Source of the DNA: Burkholderiales bacterium
GTDB lineage: Bacteria; Pseudomonadota; Gammaproteobacteria; Burkholderiales; JABEVD01
Assembly: GCA_019753155.1 (NCBI GenBank)
Contig: JAIELG010000002.1
Coordinates: forward strand, 1-42,504
Length of the DNA: 42,504 nucleotides
Direction: 5' to 3'
Shown here: positions 30,007 to 42,504 of the stretch, in pieces
Position numbering within the stretch: the first letter of the stretch is position 1
Layout of the letters: each line of letters starts with the position of its first letter
Translations under genes and position numbers: made by a program
Notes under the pieces: generated by a model
Told to the model about the DNA's origin: nothing
The model's database searches: none
The model's input: the letters and a program-made list of their open reading frames with translations, nothing else

Positions 30007-30426
30007 TCAGAATCCAAAATTTTCCAGCAACACAATTGAACCCAGATGAGCCGCCTTGCCGTAATAACGCTCGTCAGCCGTAACCAGTGTTGCGCCCGAT
30101 TCGATTGCCACGGCATGATAGAGCGTGTCGAACAGGTGGTGTTCGAGGTTCACTGAAAGTTCGATGGCTCGCCGGTAGGCAGCGGATGACGCCATAATCC
30201 TGCCATTCGCGAAGATCCGCTCGACTTCGTCGAAGCAGGCATCGGCACGATCCGACATTATACGGGACAGGACTGCCGCCACCTCGGTAAGCGCATGAGG
30301 CGGTTCGACGAGCTTTGCCCCATTCAGAATCGAGTCCAGCAAAAGCAGCGCCTGTTCGCTATCCAGCTCATCCGGGCTTGCGATATGCCACTTGATGACG
30401 ACGCTTGCATCGAGCGTCAGGATCAA
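30007..30426 (-). CDS. PIN-domain toxin (VapC-like)
   Basis: 139 residues, a PIN nuclease fold: MILTLDASVVIKWH with D6, E48 in HALTEVAAVL, D100 in HHLFDTLYHAVA and D118 in LVTADERYY, the four acidic metal ligands. VapC toxins cleave tRNA or rRNA when the antitoxin is degraded. The start overlaps the antitoxin stop by 4 bp (ATGA), the usual coupling. It is followed by the terminator before recA. All catalytic residues are present, so it should be active. Confidence 0.9.
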   Translation of the reverse strand: MILTLDASVVIKWHIASPDELDSEQALLLLDSILNGAKLVEPPHALTEVAAVLSRIMSDRADACFDEVERIFANGRIMASSAAYRRAIELSVNLEHHLFDTLYHAVAIESGATLVTADERYYGKAAHLGSIVLLENFGF

Positions 30427-30656
30427 GAACGCCCCGCCTCGCGCGCCTCGCGGATTGCCTCGTCAGCAATGGCGGGACGCTCGCTCCATCGCGATATGAT
30501 TCGCCTGACCGCATCATCGCTCTCCTGCCTGCGCCTGGCTTCGTCGACGGCTTCCCGAAGCAGTTTCGCGACGATGGCGCTCTTGTTGTCATTTGCGAAG
30601 GTCTTGTTGAAAGCATCCTTGATGTCGGCCGGGATGCTGAAATTCATGGTTGCCAT
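30423..30656 (-). CDS. VapB-like antitoxin
   Basis: 77 residues. MATMNFSIPADIKDAFNKTF is a ribbon-helix-helix-like N-terminus (beta strand MNFSIP, then helices), followed by VAKLLREAVDEARRRQ and a charged tail that would wrap the toxin. ATG 30656 has GGAGG 4 nt upstream; the longer open frame is rejected. Promoter and palindrome lie directly upstream, so it probably represses its own operon. It overlaps vapC by 4 bp. Confidence 0.8.
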   Translation of the reverse strand: MATMNFSIPADIKDAFNKTFANDNKSAIVAKLLREAVDEARRRQESDDAVRRIISRWSERPAIADEAIREAREAGRS

Positions 30657-30665
30657 CGCGCCTCC

Positions 30666-30713
30666 ATTATTGAATATTTCAACAATTATAGGCGGCGCTG
30701 AACAGACCTTCAA
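30666..30713 (-). promoter_or_regulatory. toxin-antitoxin promoter and operator palindrome
   Basis: On the minus strand TTGAAG (30708-30713), a 17-bp spacer and TATAAT (30685-30690) make a strong promoter for the VapBC pair. A 21-bp near-palindrome at 30666-30686 (ATTGTTGAA-ATA-TTCAATAAT, one mismatch pair) overlaps the -10 and transcription start; it is the likely antitoxin operator. Confidence 0.7.
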
Positions 30714-30825
30714 GATGGGCTCGAATCTGCGCACATTGCGCGGAAATAAATTCCCACTGGTCCGGAATTTGAACCACCGGGCGGCGTAACATGCTTCGGG
30801 TGCAGAGCCTTCCGAAGGAGCCATC

Positions 30826-31211
30826 ATGTCGCGCCTATCGTTTCTGCAATCCCTGTCCGTTTTCGCGGGTGCCGTCATGCTGCCAGCCGTATCCCGCGCC
30901 GCGTCAAGCTGCGAAATCTTACAGGTATCACCCGCCTCGGGATTCCAATATCATCATGGGAAATGCTCTGGTCGCAATTGGCCGCCGGACCATCCCTCGC
31001 CCTGGTACGCGAAGCGGTAAATCCATACGATGCGTGCGCCGTGCGCGTCGACTGGCGGGGCTTCAAGCTTGGCCACATACCGAGAGCGGACAATGCCGCC
31101 GCCTCGCAGCTTCCGGACCGCGGCGAGAAGCTGGAAGCGAGCATTTACGAACTGAAGGCGTGCTTCAACCCTTGGGATCGGATCAAGATGGAGGTGAGAT
31201 GGAGGGGGTGA
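30826..31211 (+). pseudogene. HIRAN-domain protein, frameshifted
   Basis: ATG 30826 (AAGGAG 7 nt upstream) begins a signal-peptide-like MSRLSFLQSLSVFAGAVMLP and ASSCEILQVSPASGFQYHHG, then leaves frame. One base off, MLWSQLAAGPSLALVREAVN begins at 30963 and continues NPYDACAVRVDWRGFKLGHIPRADN to a stop at 31209-31211. The two halves together match small exported bacterial HIRAN proteins (GFQYH...LVRE-x-NPYD-x-AV-V...LG-IPR). HIRAN binds 3' single-strand DNA ends in HLTF/Rad5. The break is in GGGAAA near 30957-30962, a homopolymer that is prone to indels. The last 13 bases overlap cas3 and contain its start, so decay of HIRAN could still deliver ribosomes to cas3. Confidence 0.7.
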
Positions 31212-33694
31212 GTAAGAAAGATGTTCGGATTGCGCACTATCGTGAAAGTGATGGTGCATATCAATCTGTTGAGCAGCATCTGATCGGTGTCGCAAAGAAA
31301 TCTAGCATGAACGCCCAAAAACTGAATCTTGGGAATCATGGCGAGTTAATTGGCATCCTTCATGACTTGGGCAAATACAGTGATGCATTCCAGTCCTACA
31401 TCAAATCAGCCGTCGGAGTGCTCAACCAGGATGAAGATGAAGAGTTCGTAGATGCTACGGGGTTGAAGGGCAAGATTGACCACTCTACTGCTGGCGCTCA
31501 AATGATTTGGCAGGCACTCTCACAAAAAGGACCATTTGGGCAAATTGCCGGACAAATACTTTCGCTTTGCATTGCCTCGCATCACTCAGGCCTAATAGAT
31601 TGTTTGTCGTCTGACATAGACAGCCTTGGCAAAAATGTATACAGCAAGCGAATGGGGAAACCTGATGAATATACCCACTTGCGAGAGGCCATCGCCAAAG
31701 CGGATACATCTATCCTTAGCCGCGCAAAAGATCTGATTGAAGAGCCAGATCTGCTCAAATCAATGCAGAAGGCTTTTGCAAAGATTGTGCTTGCCGCGCC
31801 GGTAAAAGATGACAAAAGCATTGTCGCTCAACAGCAAATAGGTTTGCTGGTTCGTTTCTTGTTCAGTTGCCTGATCGATGCCGACCGCGTTGACTCCGCA
31901 GATTTTGAAAGCCCCAAAGCAGCAAAGCTCAGGACGAACGGTCAATATGTTGAATGGGATATTCTCTGCGAACGCCTAGAAACTCACCTTGCCGCACTAA
32001 AGCCAAGCAAGCCAATTGACGATCTTCGGCGTGACATCTCAAGGCATTGCCTGAACGCAGCGCCCCGAAACAAAGGGATATATACGCTCACCGTCCCAAC
32101 CGGTGGCGGCAAGACACTCGCCAGCTTGCGGTTTGCACTTCATCACGCGAAAATACACGAGATGGATCGGGTGATTTATGTCATCCCGTTTACATCCATC
32201 ATTGACCAGAATGCGGACGTAGTTCGAGGCATCTTAGAACCAAATGGAACAAGGCCGGGCAGCATAGTGCTCGAACACCATTCCAATTTGACGCCGGAAC
32301 AACAAAGCTGGCGTGGGAAAATCCTGTCCGAGAACTGGGATGCCCCGATGATCTACACCACGAGCGTGCAGCTTCTGGAAACGCTCTTTGGAGCGGGAAC
32401 CCGAGGTGCTCGCCGGATGCATCAATTAGCCAATGCCGTCCTGATTTTTGACGAAATACAGACGCTGCCCATCAACTGCGTTCACCTATTCAATAACGCC
32501 ATCAATTTCCTGGCCGAGCAATGCGGAAGCACAGTAGTCCTGTGCACTGCCACCCAACCACTCCTCGATCGAGTTGATGCCATGCAAGGGGCCATCAGGA
32601 TTCCTCCTGACAATGAACTGATGCCAAATGTCGAAGGATTGTTCAGGGAATTAAAACGGGTCGAGGTGTTGAATCGCCACAAACCTGGGGGCTGGACTCA
32701 AGACGAGGTTGCTCATCTGGCTGTAGAGGAGGCGCGCCGCGCGGGTAGCTGCCTGGCAATCGTCAACACCAAGAGTGCTGCACAAGCCTTGTATCGCATA
32801 AGCAAGGAAATGACCGACATTCCGGCTTATCACCTAAGCACCAATATGTGCCCGTCACATCGCAAAACAATTTTGCACGAGGTTCGAGAGCGATTAGAGA
32901 AAGAATTACCCACACTCTGTTTCAGTACGCAGCTAATCGAAGCCGGAGTGGATGTGGATTTTGGCGCTGTCATCCGCTATACGGCGGGGCTGGATTCAAT
33001 CGCCCAGGCGGCTGGTCGATGCAACCGCAATGGCCGTCCTGAAATGGGGAATGTCCATATCATCAACCCAAAGGATGAAAACTTGGAAATGCTACCAGAC
33101 ATCCGTATCGGACGGGACAAGTCAGAGCGCGTGCTGGACGAATATGAAGATGCCCCTGATGAATTCGGACACGACCGGATCGGCCTTGAAGCAATGAAGC
33201 TTTATTACACTTACTATTTTTTTGATCGACAGCGTGATATGGATTACCCTATTTCAGCCAAAACCATAGGCCATGACGACACGCTGCTCAATCTGCTATC
33301 AACCAATACGCAAGCCATATCTGAGCATGGCAAGCAAACCGGCCAGGCTCCCAATATCTACCTGCGCCAATCTTTCATGTCCGCCGCCAAGGCGTTTAAA
33401 GCCATTGATGCACCGACACGCGGCGTTATTGTCCAGTTCGGAAAAGAAGGACAAGCAATCGTTGCAGAGCTTTGCGCGGCGTACATGCCGGATAAAGAGA
33501 TCGATATGCTACGCCGTGCGCAGCAATTTACTGTCAATGTATTCCCGAACATCTTGGAACGCTTAACAAAAGCAGGAGCCGTTCGGGAAGTACAAGAAGG
33601 AACCGGCATCCTGTATCTTGATTACCGTTACTACAGCGACGAATTTGGTCTTAGCGAAACACCCGTTAGAAACATGGAGGCTCTGAATGCTTGA
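31199..33694 (+). CDS. cas3: CRISPR-associated nuclease-helicase Cas3, type I-C
   Basis: 831 residues. It is recruited by Cascade and unwinds and cuts target DNA. N-terminal HD nuclease: GILHDLGKYSDAF (H55-D56) and CIASHHSGLID. SF2 helicase: Walker A VPTGGGKTLASLRF (about 300), motif II IFDEIQTLP (about 417), LCTATQPLLD, FSTQLIEAGVDVDFGAVIR and motif VI AQAAGRCNRNG (about 603). All catalytic motifs are intact. The open frame extends back to 30791, but ATG 31199 behind GGAGGTGAG is the likely start; GTG 31208 is an alternative. It overlaps the HIRAN remnant and cas5c, and heads the cas operon. Its base composition is AT-richer than the left side of the window, suggesting transfer. Confidence 0.96.
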   Translation: MEGVSKKDVRIAHYRESDGAYQSVEQHLIGVAKKSSMNAQKLNLGNHGELIGILHDLGKYSDAFQSYIKSAVGVLNQDEDEEFVDATGLKGKIDHSTAGAQMIWQALSQKGPFGQIAGQILSLCIASHHSGLIDCLSSDIDSLGKNVYSKRMGKPDEYTHLREAIAKADTSILSRAKDLIEEPDLLKSMQKAFAKIVLAAPVKDDKSIVAQQQIGLLVRFLFSCLIDADRVDSADFESPKAAKLRTNGQYVEWDILCERLETHLAALKPSKPIDDLRRDISRHCLNAAPRNKGIYTLTVPTGGGKTLASLRFALHHAKIHEMDRVIYVIPFTSIIDQNADVVRGILEPNGTRPGSIVLEHHSNLTPEQQSWRGKILSENWDAPMIYTTSVQLLETLFGAGTRGARRMHQLANAVLIFDEIQTLPINCVHLFNNAINFLAEQCGSTVVLCTATQPLLDRVDAMQGAIRIPPDNELMPNVEGLFRELKRVEVLNRHKPGGWTQDEVAHLAVEEARRAGSCLAIVNTKSAAQALYRISKEMTDIPAYHLSTNMCPSHRKTILHEVRERLEKELPTLCFSTQLIEAGVDVDFGAVIRYTAGLDSIAQAAGRCNRNGRPEMGNVHIINPKDENLEMLPDIRIGRDKSERVLDEYEDAPDEFGHDRIGLEAMKLYYTYYFFDRQRDMDYPISAKTIGHDDTLLNLLSTNTQAISEHGKQTGQAPNIYLRQSFMSAAKAFKAIDAPTRGVIVQFGKEGQAIVAELCAAYMPDKEIDMLRRAQQFTVNVFPNILERLTKAGAVREVQEGTGILYLDYRYYSDEFGLSETPVRNMEALNA

Positions 33695-34403
33695 ACGCAA
33701 CAGCATCGAATTCAAGGTATGGGGGAAACACGCACTATTCACCGATCCGCTTACCCGTATCGGCGGCGAAAAATGCTCATACCACGTCCCCACCTATGAG
33801 GCGCTTAAAGGCATAGCCAAGTCGATTTATTGGAAGCCCACATTCATCTGGTTCATTGATGAAGTGCGCGTGATGAAGCGCATTCGCACGCAAACAAAAG
33901 GCACAAAGCCTCTGGATTTTGGTGGAGGAAACACTTTGGCAATTTATACATTCCTGGCCGATGTGGAATATCAGGTGCGCGCTCACTTTGAATGGAACGA
34001 ACATCGCCCCGAATTGGCCGATGACAGAAATGAGAGCAAGCATCACATCATCGCCAAGCGCATGCTGGAACGTGGCGGGCGGCAGGATATTTTCCTGGGC
34101 ACGCGAGACAGCCAAGGTTATGTGGAGCCGTGCAAGTTCGGTTCAGGCGACAGCCCATACGATGGCGAAGGCGAACTGGCCTTTGGCTTGATGTTTCACG
34201 GCTTCGACTATCCCGACGAAATCGGCGAAGACAGGCTCTATGCCCGCTTCACCCGCCCAACGATGATTGACGGAAAAATCCGGTTTGAACGCCCGCAGGA
34301 TTGCACCGTCCGGAAATTCGTCCGCGATATGGGCAAAAAGACATTTTCAAAAGACCGCAATTTGCTCGACGTAGAAACTGAATTTGCGCGGCTGGAGGTT
34401 TGA
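33687..34403 (+). CDS. cas5c: Cas5c (Cas5d) pre-crRNA endonuclease and Cascade subunit
   Basis: 238 residues. In type I-C systems, which lack Cas6, Cas5 cuts the repeat hairpin and holds the crRNA 5' handle. RAMP fold start IEFKVWGKHALFTDP and the GGEKCSYHVPTYEALKG segment (catalytic tyrosine candidate). ESKHHIIAKRML (K118, H119/H120) matches the Y-K-H catalytic set of Bacillus Cas5d. The glycine loop region GYVEPCKFGSGDSPYDGEGEL follows. ATG 33687 overlaps the cas3 stop by 8 bp. The substrate would be the 37-nt repeat whose stem is seen in the array. Confidence 0.95.
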   Translation: MLERNSIEFKVWGKHALFTDPLTRIGGEKCSYHVPTYEALKGIAKSIYWKPTFIWFIDEVRVMKRIRTQTKGTKPLDFGGGNTLAIYTFLADVEYQVRAHFEWNEHRPELADDRNESKHHIIAKRMLERGGRQDIFLGTRDSQGYVEPCKFGSGDSPYDGEGELAFGLMFHGFDYPDEIGEDRLYARFTRPTMIDGKIRFERPQDCTVRKFVRDMGKKTFSKDRNLLDVETEFARLEV

Positions 34404-34404
34404 T

Positions 34405-36348
34405 ATGAGCTGGATTCAAAAACTTTACGAAACATACGAGCAGTGTAAAGGGCATGAGCCTCCCGGCTCATCACGCCTGATGCCGATCAGTCATACGCCA
34501 CAGCAAGCACACATCGAAATTACGTTGGACGACACTGGTAACTTCAAAGGCGCAAAAATTGTTCAGAAAGCGGAAACCATTGTTCCCGCAACTGAAAAAT
34601 CTTCCGGAAGAACAGGTTCAAAACCACCACCCCATCCTCTCTGCGACAAAGTTCAATACTGCGCGCAAGACTATCCGCAATATGGAGGAAAAAAACCGTC
34701 GTTTTTCAATGAGTATGAGGATCTACTTTCTTCATGGTGTAATTCCGAACACGGCCACCCCAAGGCTCGGGCGATACTTGCTTACATTCAAAAACACAGC
34801 GTAGTGGCCGACCTTGTCACGGAAAAAATTCTCCATCTCGGAGCAGATGGAAAATTGCTGACTCAATGGAATGGCGAGTCGGACACGCCTGACATTTTTC
34901 GTTTGCTTACTGCAAAAGATGGAGAACGAGATCAAGGAGATGCGTTTATTCGCTGGCACGTCAGGGAAGGCAACAATCCATGCACGGCAGCTTGGGAGGA
35001 TATCTCCCTACAAGATGCCTGGGGCTCATATGATGCTGACATGAAAGAATTGAAAGGTGCGTGCATGGTTACCGGGGATGCGGATGCCTCGCTTACAACC
35101 AGCCATCCCAAGCGAATTCGCCATGCTGGCGACGGTGCCAAGATTATTAGCGCCAATGATAGTTCTGGCTACACATTCCGGGGGCGATTCACGGACGAGA
35201 CCGGACAACAAGCCTGCGGTGTTAGCTATGCAGTAACCCAAAAAGCACATAACGCCTTGCGATGGTTGATCGGTCGACAGTCTTATCGCAGCGGTGATTT
35301 TGTTGTCGTCGCATGGTCCGTTGCAGGCAAACCGCTGCCCGACCCATTCAAGGATTCGCTTTCACTGATTCTCGACAGCGAAGAGCCACTTCCAGAAACC
35401 ACACCCACCGAGCAACTGGATTTAGGAGATGTCGGACAAGCTTTTGCTCTCAGGCTACGCAAGGCAATTGCAGGCTACGGCGCAAAACTGACGCCCTCCG
35501 AGGACATCGTCGTTATGGCGCTGGACTCTGCGACACCGGGGCGCATGGCGATCACTTTTTATCGCGAACTTAAAGGCTCGGATTTCCTCGCCCGAGTACA
35601 GCGCTGGCATGAGCAATACGCATGGCATCAAAACTTTGGCAAAGACTCAAGATTCGTCGGCGCCCCAGCTCCGAAAGACATCGCCGAAGCAGCCTATGGT
35701 CGCCGACTTGATGACAATCTGCGCAAAGCCACGGTAGAGCGCCTGCTGCCCTGCATTGTTGACGGGCAGACATTACCGCGCGATCTGCTTGAATCAGTCG
35801 TGCGCAGAGTCTGCAACCGGGTCGCCTTCGTGAAAGATAAAAGTGGAAGACAGTGGGAATGGGAAAAATATCTGGGTATCGCGTGTGCCCTGTTCAGAGG
35901 TTCTTACAAGGAAAGGGAATATCAAATGGCATTGGAAACAGAACGAACATCCCGTGATTATCTGTATGGGCGATTGCTATCCATCGCAGAACATATCGAG
36001 GAACGCGCCCTATATGTTGCAGATGAGAAACGCGACACAACCGCTGCAAGACTCATGCAGCGCTTTGCCGATAGGCCTAACAGCACATGGCGAAACATTG
36101 AACTCGCTCTTACGCCATACAAAACGCGTTTGCGAGCCAAGCGTCCCGCTTTCCTGCACGAAATGAAGACGCTGCTTGATGAAGTCATCGCAAAATTTGA
36201 AGGTGACGACTTCCTGAGCGATCGGAAACTTTCCGGCGAGTTTTTATTGGGCTATCACTGCCAGCGCCAGGCGTTGAATCCTCCCAAATCCGCTAAACCG
36301 GGCGGTTCGTCTTCCGAAGACGCCGCCGCCAATACTGAAGATCAATAA
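34405..36348 (+). CDS. cas8c: Cas8c (Csd1), large subunit of type I-C Cascade
   Basis: 647 residues. MSWIQKLYETYEQC opens the Csd1 family, followed by PPHPLCDKVQYCAQDYP, LGADGKLLTQWNGE, CMVTGDADASLTTSHPKRIRHAGDGAKIISANDSS-region motifs (H/G-rich), YAVTQKAHNALRWLIGRQSY and C-terminal LLGYHCQRQALNP. Cas8c recognises the PAM and, from an internal start, usually also yields the small Cas11c subunit; I cannot identify that start with confidence. GGAGG stands 7 nt before ATG 34405; it begins just after the cas5c stop. The sequence is intact. Confidence 0.95.
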   Translation: MSWIQKLYETYEQCKGHEPPGSSRLMPISHTPQQAHIEITLDDTGNFKGAKIVQKAETIVPATEKSSGRTGSKPPPHPLCDKVQYCAQDYPQYGGKKPSFFNEYEDLLSSWCNSEHGHPKARAILAYIQKHSVVADLVTEKILHLGADGKLLTQWNGESDTPDIFRLLTAKDGERDQGDAFIRWHVREGNNPCTAAWEDISLQDAWGSYDADMKELKGACMVTGDADASLTTSHPKRIRHAGDGAKIISANDSSGYTFRGRFTDETGQQACGVSYAVTQKAHNALRWLIGRQSYRSGDFVVVAWSVAGKPLPDPFKDSLSLILDSEEPLPETTPTEQLDLGDVGQAFALRLRKAIAGYGAKLTPSEDIVVMALDSATPGRMAITFYRELKGSDFLARVQRWHEQYAWHQNFGKDSRFVGAPAPKDIAEAAYGRRLDDNLRKATVERLLPCIVDGQTLPRDLLESVVRRVCNRVAFVKDKSGRQWEWEKYLGIACALFRGSYKEREYQMALETERTSRDYLYGRLLSIAEHIEERALYVADEKRDTTAARLMQRFADRPNSTWRNIELALTPYKTRLRAKRPAFLHEMKTLLDEVIAKFEGDDFLSDRKLSGEFLLGYHCQRQALNPPKSAKPGGSSSEDAAANTEDQ

Positions 36349-36366: not shown

Positions 36367-37269
36367 ATGAGCACATTGCAAAACAAGATCGATTTCGCCG
36401 TAATTCTTCGAGTCAAGAATGCCAACCCGAACGGCGACCCGCTTAACAGCAATCGTCCGCGCACCAACTATGAGAACTTCGGCGAAATCACCGACGTTTG
36501 CATCAAGCGAAAAATTCGTGACCGGCTGGCCGAACGGTTTGTAACTCTTGGTGGCAAAGAAGGAAAGCCAGAAGCAAAAGGCCAGTCCGTATTTGTCCAA
36601 TCGGATGATCGTAAAGTTGACGATGCCACCAGCCTGCGCGACCGGGCTGAAAAATTCTTCAAGTCGATAGGCAAAACATTGGGAGCCGACGATACGGTCA
36701 ACCTTGCTTGCGCGGAATGGATTGATGTGCGCGCTTTCGGCCAGCTATTCGCGCTATCCAAAAAGAAGAGCAAGAAAGCCGAAGGCGGCGAGGAGGAAGG
36801 CGATACCGGGATCTCCATAGGCATCCGTGGGCCGGTAACCATCCAGTCTGCATTCAGCCTGACGCCTATCGACATCAGCAGTACGCAAATCACAAAAAGC
36901 GTGAACGGTGAAGATACGAAAGATGGCAAGAGAAGCTCCGATACGATGGGCATGAAACATCGCGTAGATCATGGAATTTATGTTTTTTATGGGAGTATGA
37001 ATCCGCAGCTCGCAGAAAAGACAAAGTTCAGTGATGAGGACGCTCTTGTCATCAAGGGAATTCTGCCAAAGCTGTTCGAGAACGACGAATCCAGCGCCCG
37101 TCCTGCAGGCAGTATGGAAGTGCTCAAGGTTTTCTGGTGGAAACACAACTGTAAATCGGGGCAACACTCTTCGGCCAAGGTTCATAACTCGCTGGCGGTT
37201 AGATCGGATGGCACCTTCGAACCCTCGAAGCTGGAAGGACTTGAACCGGAGCAAATTGATGGCTTTTGA
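36367..37269 (+). CDS. cas7c: Cas7c (Csd2), Cascade backbone subunit
   Basis: 300 residues. The Csd2 signature is complete: FAVILRVKNANPNGDPLNSNRPRT, ITDVCIKRKIRDRL, WIDVRAFGQLFAL, a lysine-rich then acidic loop (KKKSKKAEGGEEEGD), ISIGIRGPVTIQSAFSLTPI, DTMGMKHRVDHGIYVFYGSM and VLKVFWWKHNCKSGQHSSAKVH. Several copies coat the crRNA spacer. AAGGAGACCGTAAC precedes the ATG. A 63-bp gap, the longest in the cas operon, follows before hicB. Confidence 0.95.
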   Translation: MSTLQNKIDFAVILRVKNANPNGDPLNSNRPRTNYENFGEITDVCIKRKIRDRLAERFVTLGGKEGKPEAKGQSVFVQSDDRKVDDATSLRDRAEKFFKSIGKTLGADDTVNLACAEWIDVRAFGQLFALSKKKSKKAEGGEEEGDTGISIGIRGPVTIQSAFSLTPIDISSTQITKSVNGEDTKDGKRSSDTMGMKHRVDHGIYVFYGSMNPQLAEKTKFSDEDALVIKGILPKLFENDESSARPAGSMEVLKVFWWKHNCKSGQHSSAKVHNSLAVRSDGTFEPSKLEGLEPEQIDGF

Positions 37270-37332
37270 CGCAGCCAATTTTCTGTTAGGTGTATCATTG
37301 ATGCGTGTGGTGAACTAGATAAAGGAGAGCTT

Positions 37333-37539
37333 ATGAACGAAATTCTTTTTCTCGTGGAGCAGGCTCACGAAGGCGGATACATTGCCCGTGCGCTGGGCGA
37401 GTCGATTTTCACCGAAGCAGACACCTTGCCTGAATTGCGCCTGATGGTTCAGGAGGCGGTGCATTGCCATTTCGACGAACAGGACATGCCCAAAATCATC
37501 CGCCTGCACATCGTGCAGGAAGAGGTCATGGCCGCATGA
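37333..37539 (+). CDS. hicB: HicB-like antitoxin inside the cas operon
   Basis: 68 residues with the partial RNase H-like HicB fold: MNEILFLVEQAHEGGYIARALGESIFTEADTLPELRLMVQEAV. It lacks the C-terminal HTH or ribbon-helix-helix DNA-binding domain found in longer HicB proteins, so it may not autoregulate. Strong ribosome site AAAGGAGAG precedes the ATG. Its stop overlaps the hicA start (ATGA). It neutralises HicA by direct contact (family knowledge). Placement between cas7c and cas4 is unusual. Confidence 0.85.
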   Translation: MNEILFLVEQAHEGGYIARALGESIFTEADTLPELRLMVQEAVHCHFDEQDMPKIIRLHIVQEEVMAA

Positions 37540-37778
37540 GGCTGCCACGCGACTTGACTGGCGCAGAGCTGATCAAGCGCCTGTCGAAACTGGGCTACCG
37601 TCAAACGCGTCAGACCGGCAGTCACATCAGGGTGACATGCGACACACCGAAGCAGCATCACGTTACGATTCCTCTACACGATCCGCTGCGGATAGGAACG
37701 CTTGCCGCCATTCTCGGCGACGTGGCCGAAGCGCACGGAATGGATCGGAATGATCTGTTGGAGCGGATGTTTTCCTGA
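37536..37778 (+). CDS. hicA: HicA toxin (double-stranded RNA-binding mRNA interferase) inside the cas operon
   Basis: 80 residues with the complete HicA fold: LTGAELIKRLSKLGYRQTRQTGSHIRVT with catalytic H30, HHVTIPLHDPLRIGTLAAIL and C-terminal helix. HicA cleaves mRNA in a ribosome-independent way. The catalytic histidine and the GSH-x-R motif are kept, so it is predicted active. It follows hicB with an ATGA overlap, and its stop abuts the cas4 ATG with no gap, so it is fully embedded in the cas transcript. Confidence 0.9.
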   Translation: MRLPRDLTGAELIKRLSKLGYRQTRQTGSHIRVTCDTPKQHHVTIPLHDPLRIGTLAAILGDVAEAHGMDRNDLLERMFS

Positions 37779-38399
37779 ATGGAACCCCAGGATCCCGTCA
37801 TGCTCTCGGCGCTCCAGCACTGGAGCTATTGCCCGCGCCAGTGTGGGTTGATTCATCTGGAGCAGGCGTTCGAGGAAAACGTCCACACCATGCGCGGCAA
37901 TGCTGTGCATGAGCGTGTGGATGAGCCCGGATTCGAGACATTCGAAGGCGTGCGCTCGGAACGCGCCCTGCCCGTCTGGTCGGACCGGCTGGGGCTCATT
38001 GGTAAATGCGACGTGGTGGAATTCCACCCTGACGGGCGAATTTCTCCCGTCGAATACAAGCACGGCAAGAAGCGTGAAGAACTGCACGACGACATGCAAC
38101 TCGCGGCGCAGGCGATGTGTCTCGAAGAGATGACCGGCAAATCCATCACGCGGGGTGCGATTTATCATCACGGCTCGCGCCGCAGGCGGGAAGTGGAAAT
38201 CACGCCGGAACTGCGGCGAAAGGTCGAGGAAACCGTAGCTGCCATTCGCGCCATGCTGGATTCCGGCAAGCTCCCGCCTCCTGCCAACGATGCCCGTTGT
38301 CGCGAATGCTCGCTCAAGGAAATCTGCCAGCCCGAAGCTGTTGCCGCGCTCGATGCGCAACATGAAATGATGAATTCCCTTTTCGATGTGGAGTCCTGA
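37779..38399 (+). CDS. cas4: Cas4 nuclease of the adaptation module
   Basis: 206 residues. N-terminal cysteines WSYCPRQCGLIH (C18, C22), RecB-type nuclease motifs KCDVVEFHPDGRISPVEYKHGKK and DMQLAAQAMCLEE, and C-terminal CRECSLKEIC complete the iron-sulfur cluster set. Cas4 trims prespacers and selects the PAM for Cas1-Cas2. ATG 37779 directly follows the hicA TGA; ATG 37800 (MLSALQHWSY) is a possible alternative start. It is joined to cas1 without gap. Confidence 0.95.
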   Translation: MEPQDPVMLSALQHWSYCPRQCGLIHLEQAFEENVHTMRGNAVHERVDEPGFETFEGVRSERALPVWSDRLGLIGKCDVVEFHPDGRISPVEYKHGKKREELHDDMQLAAQAMCLEEMTGKSITRGAIYHHGSRRRREVEITPELRRKVEETVAAIRAMLDSGKLPPPANDARCRECSLKEICQPEAVAALDAQHEMMNSLFDVES

Positions 38400-39729
<1,330 letters not shown>

Positions 39730-39907
39730 ATTCGCGAACCCCGAGCTGCGGCGATATGCCGGGAGGTTCGCGCAACGTGCAATATATTGTAATCATGAAG
39801 ATTTTATATTCACCCCCGCCAAACCCGGCCTTCGCAGAATCCTTTCTTCGAAGGTTCGCGCATCCACGCCAGAATCTTTTTTGGTATCATCGAGTTGTAG
39901 CTGTACT
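39730..39907 (+). promoter_or_regulatory. CRISPR leader
   Basis: 178 bp between the cas2 stop and the first repeat. CGCGAACC (39733-39740) is inverted as GGTTCGCG (39765-39772), and the same GGTTCGCG recurs directly at 39853-39860, 48 bp before the first repeat. The middle (39780-39815) is AT-rich. TATCAT near 39885-39892 could be a -10 for array transcription, without a good -35. The repeated element may be a leader anchor for Cas1-Cas2 or a host factor (inference). No gene is seen here. Confidence 0.75.
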
Positions 39908-42504
39908 GTAGCGCCCGTCTTTCGAGACGGGCGAGGATTGAAACAATTCTGTATAATATGCCAGCATGATCCCGACTGGGTAGCGCCCGTCTTTCGAGAC
40001 GGGCGAGGATTGAAACGTTGCTGTATTCGACGATCACCGCAAGGATGAGGTAGCGCCCGTCTTTCGAGACGGGCGAGGATTGAAACGATTGTCATGCCCA
40101 ATTCTCGCGCACGTTCCGCGTAGCGCCCGTCTTTCGAGACGGGCGAGGATTGAAACAAGAAAACGCCTCCGGAATATTGCAGAGCAATTGAGGTAGCGCC
40201 CGTCTTTCGAGACGGGCGAGGATTGAAACATGATTTTTGTCATTTCCTGCTGGGCTGCTGCATAGTAGCGCCCGTCTTTCGAGACGGGCGAGGATTGAAA
40301 CATGAAAAACGCCTTCGGCGGTTTTGGCCTGCTCAAGTAGCGCCCGTCTTTCGAGACGGGCGAGGATTGAAACCTTTGCCATCACGCGAAGCGCGGTGAC
40401 CATCTCCGTAGCGCCCGTCTTTCGAGACGGGCGAGGATTGAAACAACTGTTACATCGGGATAGTTACGCCGCAACGTCGTAGCGCCCGTCTTTCGAGACG
40501 GGCGAGGATTGAAACCTGGAAGGCGTTGAATGCGTAGGCAGGCATCTGGGTAGCGCCCGTCTTTCGAGACGGGCGAGGATTGAAACCCGCATATCTGGCT
40601 TGGAGCGTACAAGGAAGCGGGTAGCGCCCGTCTTTCGAGACGGGCGAGGATTGAAACCTGCATAAAAGCAGTTTTTACCAACCGCCTCGCGGTAGCGCCC
40701 GTCTTTCGAGACGGGCGAGGATTGAAACAATCATGCCGTCGATATATTCCGGGTCTGAGATGGTAGCGCCCGTCTTTCGAGACGGGCGAGGATTGAAACC
40801 GCATGAGTTGCTCGCACTGCTCCCACAAATCCAGTAGCGCCCGTCTTTCGAGACGGGCGAGGATTGAAACATAACCCGGAAGAAGCGGGAGTGATCCTGC
40901 TCAATGTAGCGCCCGTCTTTCGAGACGGGCGAGGATTGAAACAGGACGAAATGGTCCTCACCCTGCGCAAGCCGGTCACGGTAGCGCCCGTCTTTCGAGA
41001 CGGGCGAGGATTGAAACCTTGTATTCGGGCTGATTGACAATGCTGCGGCCCGTGTAGCGCCCGTCTTTCGAGACGGGCGAGGATTGAAACCTCTGATTGT
41101 TTAGCTCCCTCATTCTCGGGTCTAGTAGCGCCCGTCTTTCGAGACGGGCGAGGATTGAAACCTTCGCCGTCTGGCGCGATTAAAAAGGGTTGGTTGTAGC
41201 GCCCGTCTTTCGAGACGGGCGAGGATTGAAACATGCTCCAGCGCATCCGCGAAGCTTGCGGCAATGGTAGCGCCCGTCTTTCGAGACGGGCGAGGATTGA
41301 AACTTTTGCCTTTTAGTCCAGATACCAGGTGCCCGCCGGTAGCGCCCGTCTTTCGAGACGGGCGAGGATTGAAACCCTCCGGCAGCCCCAACGGACAGCT
41401 TGTACGTTCGTAGCGCCCGTCTTTCGAGACGGGCGAGGATTGAAACTTTTACTAAGGGTGAATTAACGGTACCCGACCGAGTAGCGCCCGTCTTTCGAGA
41501 CGGGCGAGGATTGAAACAGAAGTTGGCCGTCGAGAACGCTGCGGACATCAAGTAGCGCCCGTCTTTCGAGACGGGCGAGGATTGAAACAGGAGAAGGAAA
41601 AATGGCACGGAGACGACTTGTAGGTAGCGCCCGTCTTTCGAGACGGGCGAGGATTGAAACCCGAGTATCGGAGCAGCGGCGGCAGCGTTACTGGGTGTAG
41701 CGCCCGTCTTTCGAGACGGGCGAGGATTGAAACGTCGAGTCGTGTGGATTCGCGGGATTTTTTACGTGTAGCGCCCCGCTTTAGAGAAGGGCGCGGAATG
41801 AAACCGGTTGATGCGGATCCGCCGGACCCGATTGTTAATGTAGCGCCCGTCTTTCGAGACGGGCGAGGATTGAAACCCAACTACAACCGGCGATACCGTA
41901 ACGTTCCCGGGTAGCGCCCGTCTTTCGAGACGGGCGAGGATTGAAACATCAAGAACAATGAGACCATGACGCGACTCATCAAGTAGCGCCCGTCTTTCGA
42001 GACGGGCGAGGATTGAAACATTACGGCTACCTCGACTGGATCTCCAGGCAGGCGGTAGCGCCCGTCTTTCGAGACGGGCGAGGATTGAAACAGGTGTTAG
42101 TTTGGGTCTGCTCATTTCGCTGCGCGTAGCGCCCGTCTTTCGAGACGGGCGAGGATTGAAACTTCTTCTACTGCCAGACCCCCCCTTGATATATTGGTAG
42201 CGCCCGTCTTTCGAGACGGGCGAGGATTGAAACAACTGTTGCGGTCCCGGCAAAGTCGAGGGAAAGGAAGTAGCGCCCGTCTTTCGAGACGGGCGAGGAT
42301 TGAAACCCGTGCGGCGTCATTCAGGGGGTCGAGATATTGGGGTAGCGCCCGTCTTTCGAGACGGGCGAGGATTGAAACAATAGGCTGCTTGCCTTGAGCG
42401 AGCAGCCCACTGGTAGCGCCCGTCTTTCGAGACGGGCGAGGATTGAAACAGCTTCCAGATATCGTCATATTCTTTCAGCAGGCGTAGCGCCCGTCTTTCG
42501 AGAC
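39908..42504 (+). CRISPR. type I-C CRISPR array, 37 repeats, open at the window end
   Basis: Repeats of 37 nt start at 39908 and recur every 70-75 bp to 42484, where the last copy is cut after 21 nt. I count 37 repeats and 36 spacers of 33-38 nt (most 34-35; the longest, 38 nt, at 40943-40980). Each repeat begins GTAGCGCCCGTC, has an 8-bp stem CGCCCGTC/GACGGGCG around TTTCGA, and ends GAGGATTGAAAC, the 3' sequence typical of I-C handles. Copies look identical except that at 41768. No two spacers look the same. The leader and cas2 lie at 39439-39907, so newest spacers are at the left. Open frames across the array are repeat translations, not genes. Confidence 0.98.
41768..41804 (+). repeat. 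degenerate CRISPR repeat in the middle of the array
   Basis: Repeat 27 differs from the consensus at six positions (10 G to C, 11 T to G, 16 C to A, 21 C to A, 27 A to C, 31 T to A), which weakens the stem on both sides and changes ATTGAAAC to AATGAAAC. Length and flanking spacers are normal, and the repeats on both sides (41697 and 41840) are perfect. A crRNA processed here could fail, merging or losing spacers 26 and 27. Confidence 0.9.

Follow-up and report, generated by a model that had tools for sequence, protein, structure and literature searches.

The question raised by this locus is why a type I-C CRISPR-Cas operon carries two small genes, hicB and hicA, between cas7c and cas4, and whether such a toxin-antitoxin pair is a passenger there or does something for the cas locus. 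Here we analyzed the pair in its own operon and surveyed the same position in related loci. The window, by which we mean the whole stretch of 42,504 nucleotides that was analyzed, is one whole contig of a 2.66-Mb assembly in 59 contigs.

The window carries cas3, cas5c, cas8c, cas7c, cas4, cas1c and cas2 in this order together with a CRISPR array, and the operon is assigned to type I-C on this basis; all of these features are on the forward strand. The cas3 ORF (30791..33694) was recognised by TIGR01587, TIGR01596 and PADLOC Cas3c, and the gene start probably lies at about 31211. It is followed by cas5c (33687..34403; TIGR01876, 243.3 bits), the cas8c ORF (34384..36348; TIGR01863, 397.6 bits) and cas7c (36367..37269; TIGR02589, 307.8 bits), which is the last gene of the effector module. 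Then come a gap of 63 bp (37270..37332), the hicBA pair, and the adaptation operon with cas4 as its first gene (37779..38399; PF01930, PADLOC Cas4c), cas1c (38400..39437; TIGR03640, 505 bits) and cas2 (39439..39729). The TIGR01573 and PADLOC Cas2c matches were obtained on a longer ORF (39265-39729), and the start of cas2 was set at the Met where the family match begins. The array (39908..42449) has 35 exact repeats of 37 nt and one degenerate repeat and reaches the contig end; the degenerate copy (41768-41804) lies inside it, where the flanking exact repeats are 106 bases apart. A stretch of 13 bases is common to one spacer and cas4, which was taken as chance. The four nearest named relatives of the Cas7c protein come from Sideroxydans, Gallionellaceae, Gallionella and Nitrosomonas MAGs. 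Just upstream of cas3, on the reverse strand (30007-30878), stand a PIN-domain gene (PF01850, 38.8 bits) and a small overlapping partner ORF, for which Pfam and NCBIfam gave no match; the two probably form a VapBC-type pair, which would border the cas operon on its far side.

The hicB antitoxin gene (37333..37539, forward strand, 68 aa) was recognised from its ORF, an alignment and a modelled fold, and the hicA toxin gene (37536..37778, forward strand, 80 aa) from PF07927 and an alignment. The two genes overlap in an ATGA, with the hicA start inside the overlap, and the ATG of cas4 at 37779 stands directly after the hicA TGA with 0 bp between. HicA matches Pfam PF07927 (HicA_toxin) with 49.3 bits against a cut-off of 27, and it had no NCBIfam or PADLOC match at E 0.001. 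HicB had no match in Pfam, NCBIfam or PADLOC, and a PDB sequence search with both proteins returned nothing useful. Two cyanobacterial plasmids (L160, L161) each encode, immediately before an annotated HicA toxin, a protein with 64% identity to HicB; the records name one of these proteins '2-oxoisovalerate dehydrogenase' and the other 'hypothetical protein'. The HicB model (pLDDT 92) is one domain with the order strand-strand-strand-helix-strand, and among its Foldseek neighbours, all at E-values above 0.001, are E. coli HicB3 (6u0i; prob 0.95, rmsd 1.5 over 44 columns), 1wv8/2yzt (prob 0.99) and 3k6q, which is another antitoxin. The fold model settles the protein as the predicted HicB-fold antitoxin partner. 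The 68 aa of this single domain leave no room for an RHH or HTH, so control of the operon by HicB alone is unlikely; short forms of HicB exist, and autoregulation by a DNA-binding HicB is not required of HicAB. The earlier note had described two small HicB and HicA genes, ATGA-coupled and without a gap to cas4, the HicB lacking a DNA-binding domain, and this description is confirmed by the exact coordinates, the HicA Pfam match and the modelled one-domain fold. By its genes and motifs the pair appears to be an ordinary type II HicBA toxin-antitoxin module, with toxicity of HicA and neutralisation by HicB predicted.

Conserved synteny in other I-C loci had been named in the earlier note as support for a functional link, and absence of the pair from all related I-C loci as evidence against it. 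The pair is not absent: hicBA was found between cas7 and cas4 in nine further loci. The junctions of the operon were surveyed in the 80 loci with the nearest Cas7c, one genome per species, in which cas genes were located by tblastn with the window proteins; this choice of loci favours the window's own kind, and gene starts were estimated from the matches. Inserts of at least 300 bp were found at the cas7-cas4 junction in 31 of 76 loci, at cas4-cas1 in 7 of 73, at cas3-cas5 in 1 of 70, and at cas5-cas8 (0/74), cas8-cas7 (0/77) and cas1-cas2 (0/68) in none, the denominators differing with contig ends or unrecognised genes. The five junctions other than cas7-cas4 sum to 8 inserts in 362, and the asymmetry in favour of cas7-cas4 is strong, even against cas4-cas1 alone. 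The further claim that I-C loci normally run without a gap holds for the 45 of 76 near loci which have no insert of this size at cas7-cas4 and fails for the other 31. In one locus (L028) a gap of 901 bp at cas4-cas1 stands outside the 7/73 count, probably because of unread bases there.

Toxin-antitoxin genes of six kinds were found in 22 of the 31 inserts at cas7-cas4. The occupant is hicBA in 5 loci (L015, L016, L020, L027, L064) and ParE and/or its antitoxins in 12 (L013, L018, L022, L025, L031, L046, L059, L061, L069, L070, L083, L091); in L059 and L061 only an antitoxin family was found, and in L018, L025, L031, L069 and L091 only the toxin was scanned. The remaining kinds are PIN (L014), DUF433 with DUF5615 (L053, L089), which we take to be toxin-antitoxin families, a Gp49-like gene with a HI1420-type antidote (L076) and PemK/MazF (L088). 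The nine inserts which have no toxin-antitoxin genes hold AAA/DUF4143 (L034), NucS_C (L071), HEAT (L074), Bro-N in three loci (L067, L072, L078) and two Y1-transposase-like genes below the cut-off (L041, L045), and in L036 no gene was recognised by eye. The pair is not special to the site but one of several exchangeable occupants, and the recurrence of the same or different toxin-antitoxin pairs suggests a real exchangeable slot rather than an accident. The main rival explanation is that toxin-antitoxin and other small mobile genes insert genome-wide and that in cas operons mainly those at the boundary of effector and adaptation genes, and at cas4-cas1, survive selection; hicBA would then be a selfish passenger which is kept by its own addiction and brings no benefit to CRISPR. 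The nine inserts without toxin-antitoxin genes suit this explanation, and the near emptiness of the other junctions argues against it; we consider it possible, though on the improbable side.

The cas4-cas1 junction is a second toxin-antitoxin slot. A MazF/PemK-type toxin with an RHH partner stands there antisense in L016, L028, L091 and L156, and L016, L091 and L156 have a module at cas7-cas4 as well. Phd with PIN was found in L096, ParE with antitoxin in L101, and HEPN with a nucleotidyltransferase in L154 (6021-6744); L153, of the same genus as L154, has no gap at this place, which points to a recent insertion or loss. The SMODS nucleotidyltransferase with SLATT effector in a Haemophilus I-C locus (L079, 9537-10831) is apparently a second defence system inside the cas operon. 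Other inserts at this junction are Bro-N (L037), DUF1643 (L087) and unrecognised genes (L060, L084). Genes of the Bro-N (L067, L072, L078, L037) and RhuM (L098, L114, L116) families recur at one or the other of the two junctions. Insertion at tolerated sites would agree with the toxin-antitoxin genes that are found at cas4-cas1, as well or instead, in three of the ten hicBA loci (L016, L154, L156) and in L028, L091, L096 and L101.

A broader sample was taken from the genomes of the window's relatives (150) and of its class (369), and 37 loci were examined: 8 of 10 relatives rows, the window's own and one below the cut-off being out, and 29 of 41 class rows, the own row and 11 for which no locus was retrieved, most of them partial, second or weak matches, being left out. 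In 31 of these loci cas4 was in view, and 11 of the 31 have an insert of at least 300 bp at cas7-cas4, with toxin-antitoxin genes in 8 of the 11. HicBA occupies 4 of the 31 loci (G133, G398, G424 and G170, the last two of one genus); the other occupants are DUF5615, ParE, DUF433/DUF5615 and DUF4258 with an MqsA-like match below the cut-off, in one locus each, and RhuM in three. In all 8 toxin-antitoxin cases cas4 is at least 56% identical to that of the window (in L099 over 33 residues only). Toxin-antitoxin genes thus stand at cas7-cas4 in 8 of 14 loci with cas4 at or above 56% and in 0 of 17 below (Fisher 0.0004); this cut was chosen afterwards, and other cuts give Fisher 0.003-0.01.

The 39 I-C genomes other than the window's contain 62 HicA matches (E up to 0.001), which are common away from the junction, and ParE is common elsewhere in the same genomes; such abundance is in line with genome-wide insertion of small mobile genes. 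Four of the 62 HicA matches, two of them in one genus, stand at cas7-cas4, where about 0.03 would be expected for a slot of 1.5 kb, any enrichment being judged against the other cas junctions and this within-genome HicA rate only. Among the ParE matches listed, one stands at the cas7-cas4 junction (G158) and another follows cas7 closely (G298). Matches to a HicB profile were rare: with the window's own genome included each time, they were found in 12 among the 369 genomes of the class, in 7 among the 150 relatives and in 2 among the 398 genomes of the phylum; the profile was built from ten cas-linked sequences, so the cas-linked share of its matches (4/12, own included) is biased. An origin of HicB from phages or plasmids was considered and is not supported: 50,697 phage records gave 0 matches, the two plasmids with HicB are both cyanobacterial and have no annotated cas genes in the stretches read, and two loci are in viral_contigs.

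The spacing of the pair was found to vary little on the cas4 side and widely on the cas7 side. All ten hicBA loci have between -4 and +15 bp from the hicA stop to the cas4 start by candidate start codons, or 0 to 18 bp by homologous position, and from cas7 to hicB the distance varies from 10 to 370 bp. In 4 of the 10 loci hicB begins 10-23 bp behind the cas7 stop, which leaves little room for a promoter of its own. A promoter scan of 37000-38500 in the window gave no consensus sigma-70 site, and this consensus may not fit the host; about 44 bp before hicB recur with 2 differences in a genome of the same genus (G001), behind a different upstream sequence. Half of the 22 modules of all families (11, of which 5 are hicBA) are on the sense strand, and 10 of these 11 are nearer to cas4 than to cas7 (median 8 vs 75 bp). 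The 11 antisense modules are all of ParE type or its antitoxins, and in 8 of them the cas7-side end lies within about 30 bp of the cas7 stop. The occurrence of both orientations is what a merely tolerated insertion site would give; that sense modules hug cas4 and not cas7 is not.

The same spacing may also be read as a sign that the toxin-antitoxin genes and cas4-cas1-cas2 form one stress-responsive unit, in which the antitoxin runs short under infection or translation stress, the cell is slowed by the toxin, and spacer acquisition gains from this delay or from derepression of the operon. The close fit of hicA to cas4 in all ten loci and the grouping of hicBA with the adaptation side rather than the effector are consistent with it, and a link of suicide or dormancy to immunity is put forward as a general idea in the consulted part of Makarova et al. 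2012 (PMC3506569). Against it, antisense ParE modules cannot be co-transcribed with cas4, so that co-transcription is not general across the 22 modules, and a HicB without DNA-binding domain is a poor candidate for the operon's regulator. We regard this coupling as quite unlikely.

In a Cas1 tree of 75 loci, made by a quick method, most of the toxin-antitoxin cases of cas7-cas4 fall to one side of a branch with good support, with 21 of 28 rows on that side and 2 of 47 on the other; after removal of the window and the four loci added for hicBA the counts are 16 of 23 and 2 of 47, the rows not being independent and host taxonomy being confounded with the Cas1 clade. Subject to this confounding, such concentration speaks against a site open to all comers. 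The hicBA label requires at least 7 changes on the tree, 4 of them forced by well supported branches, so the slot has changed occupants repeatedly; among the closest kin of the window, ParE is found in L013 and L091, PIN in L014 and hicBA in L015. In two loci (L155, L156) cas7 shares no more than 30-31% identity with that of the window, while still scoring above the I-C Cas7 cut-off, and cas4 shares 68-71%. These loci group with L020 and L027 in the hicBA tree (bootstrap 90), and the cas4 tree has all four in one wider clade (bootstrap 96) which also holds ParE loci. The placement of hicBA in L064 disagrees with the cas1 and cas4 trees. From these trees hicBA would appear to go mostly with cas4-cas1-cas2, and the slot probably belongs to one lineage of I-C adaptation modules and not to Cascade. 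A single clade of cas-linked hicBA was also considered and was rejected, as its support is low and the copy of the same-genus genome G003, which has no cas4, nests beside that of the window.

This bears on the proposal of the earlier note that the pair is linked to Cascade, of which the known form is the CreTA guard, where Cascade with a crRNA-like guide represses a toxin gene and loss of Cascade releases the toxin. The pair does adjoin the Cascade genes, and CreTA is known for other type I systems, as given in the consulted portions of PMC9458426, PMC10097628 and PMC8501985. No repeat-like element was detected in an ungapped test: the best match in 2.2 kb round hicBA was 19/37, where 30 crude shuffles gave 19-21, and the best in the whole cas region was 22, at 36272 inside cas8, where 10 shuffles gave 19-22. 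Before position 39900 neither strand of the window contains ATTGAAAC. A protein antitoxin is present, hicBA is joined to the adaptation genes and is kept with a very different effector, and in relatives other toxin-antitoxin families fill the slot, 11 of the 22 modules being on the opposite strand, which makes control specific to Cascade unlikely. The proposed Cascade link is not supported by this evidence, and we consider a CreTA-like guard highly improbable.

Both reading frames are intact in all ten cas-linked hicBA loci. An alignment of HicB from the window and nine cas-linked homologues has 29 invariant columns, and that of HicA from the ten loci has invariant His and Arg residues, among them H30, the His of the 'GSH/GNH' (GxH) motif, which is invariant in 10 of 10 and which we take to be the catalytic His. 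Omega was estimated by a counting method, without confidence limits, and the values for hicB and hicA were 0.070 and 0.088 between the window and L015, 0.058 and 0.104 between L153 and L154, and 0.065 and 0.076 between L020 and L027, where dS is near 2; the comparison of the window with L016 was saturated. The window and G003 gave 0.109 and 0.100, and a pair that is not cas-linked (L141-L142) gave 0.27 and 0.41. The values of cas7, cas4 and cas1 for window-L015 and L153-L154 are 0.045-0.111, like those of hicB and hicA. The sampled cas-linked hicBA pairs are under purifying selection.

Decay was observed in the same-genus genome G001, which is 88% complete, has no Cas7c match and carries a decayed copy of the region. 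Its hicB is intact (96% identical), its hicA is cut short after the first codons and its cas4 is internally deleted. The region also holds a DUF5615 piece, two Unstab_antitox frames, a DUF2281 match just below the cut-off and a full-length DUF4258 frame (40 bits); ParE- and PIN-like pieces were seen by eye only, and Pfam gave nothing for them. The loss of hicA fits the idea that the toxin dies first. The pattern is not specific, because an intact hicB with a truncated hicA was also found in L144 and L151, away from cas4, cas1 and cas7, and the full-length DUF4258 frame, by which not all toxin-like genes are dead, does not help that idea. In the other same-genus genome (G003) hicA is intact, hicB is cut by the contig end and no cas4 follows, so hicBA can persist on its own. 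Next to the decayed I-C junction of G001, L148 (9872-10345) has an array with a different repeat, which we take to resemble type II-C repeats, and it is possible that one CRISPR type was replaced by another here. The decayed toxin genes which a sister genome has at this locus would suit the view that the window's pair is an inactive remnant kept by chance; the intact frames in ten loci, the invariant His and Arg residues and an omega of 0.06-0.10 in the three measurable cas-linked pairs oppose it, and of all the readings weighed here we give it the least credence.

The explanation which we prefer, at roughly even chances, is that the window has a HicBA module in an exchangeable toxin-antitoxin slot heading cas4-cas1-cas2 of one I-C lineage, the likeliest net effect being addiction. 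One transcript would carry hicB, hicA, cas4, cas1 and cas2, and HicA would be a toxin that cleaves RNA and that HicB holds in check. If the locus were lost or silenced, HicA would be set free, because HicB would be the shorter-lived partner. A CRISPR locus with such a slot would in this way be expensive to give up, and the choice of toxin-antitoxin family would not matter, which explains both the exchange of families and the two orientations; these two features favour addiction or self-maintenance over a specific signal. Protection of the cas locus against loss would be a plausible role of the pair. The nine inserts without toxin-antitoxin genes count against the addiction reading, as they are expected of a merely permissive site. 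So do the 45 of 76 near loci with no insert of 300 bp, the 11 antisense modules, for which co-transcription with cas4 does not hold, the full-length DUF4258 frame and the non-specific decay pattern of G001, the pair of G003 that stands without cas4, and the conflicting trees of L064. An unlikely further step, to which we give only slightly more weight than to stress-coupled adaptation, would be that cas4 is flanked by toxin-antitoxin slots in one I-C lineage with sense modules heading the adaptation operon, that toxin dormancy and spacer acquisition are coupled, and that the module is a functional, family-agnostic part of adaptation and no passenger.

The value of the locus lies in a defined, repeated arrangement with natural replacements in related loci, namely hicBA, ParE-type, PIN, PemK/MazF-type and DUF433/DUF5615 modules, and one such locus is that of Acidithiobacillus ferrianus MG (L020), whose record bears the title of a strain and not of a MAG. 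A single swappable slot makes stabilisation of the locus, as against help to adaptation, directly testable. The HicAB type II toxin-antitoxin family was reportedly described by Makarova, Grishin and Koonin in 2006. The window pair agrees with that family in its HicA_toxin member with GxH, its HicB-fold partner directly upstream and its overlapping genes, and differs in that its HicB is a minimal protein of 68 aa without DNA-binding domain, is missed by the Pfam models and is embedded in a cas operon. Cooperation of CRISPR-Cas and toxin-antitoxin systems has been discussed since 2006 (PMC1462988) and 2012 (PMC3506569), going by the consulted parts of these papers. The part of Makarova et al. 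2006 (PMC1462988) available to us lists HicB/HicA among 'genes loosely associated with CASS' (e.g. MCA0653, MTH321), considers HicB near cas genes a possible toxin-antitoxin module and names COG2442 and PIN too; within that part no fixed position, slot, exchange or adaptation link is given. No account of a toxin-antitoxin slot between cas7 and cas4 was found in the literature searched, which leaves most subscription papers outside, and the accessible portions of PMC6360697, PMC3150331, PMC11742911, PMC3794950, PMC4742961 and PMC4886054 have nothing on it. By term search, HicA is absent from a 2025 review on toxin-antitoxin/CRISPR coupling (PMC12737573), and the 2025 classification paper (PMC12669027) uses toxin terms in just two places, a sentence on how Cas13 arose and a reference title.

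With CreTA, as the consulted extracts describe it, the window pair shares that a toxin-antitoxin system is tied to a type I system and punishes its loss; CreTA is an RNA pair repressed by Cascade via a degenerate repeat, whereas the window pair is two proteins near which no repeat-like element was found. The shuffling of effector and adaptation modules, with the adaptation side fixed, is set out in the available part of Koonin and Makarova 2019 (PMC6452270). Our loci agree with that description in that cas4-cas1-cas2 is combined with more than one kind of effector module, L155 and L156 being examples, and they differ from it, so far as that part goes, in that the toxin-antitoxin slot of the window's lineage goes with the adaptation side.
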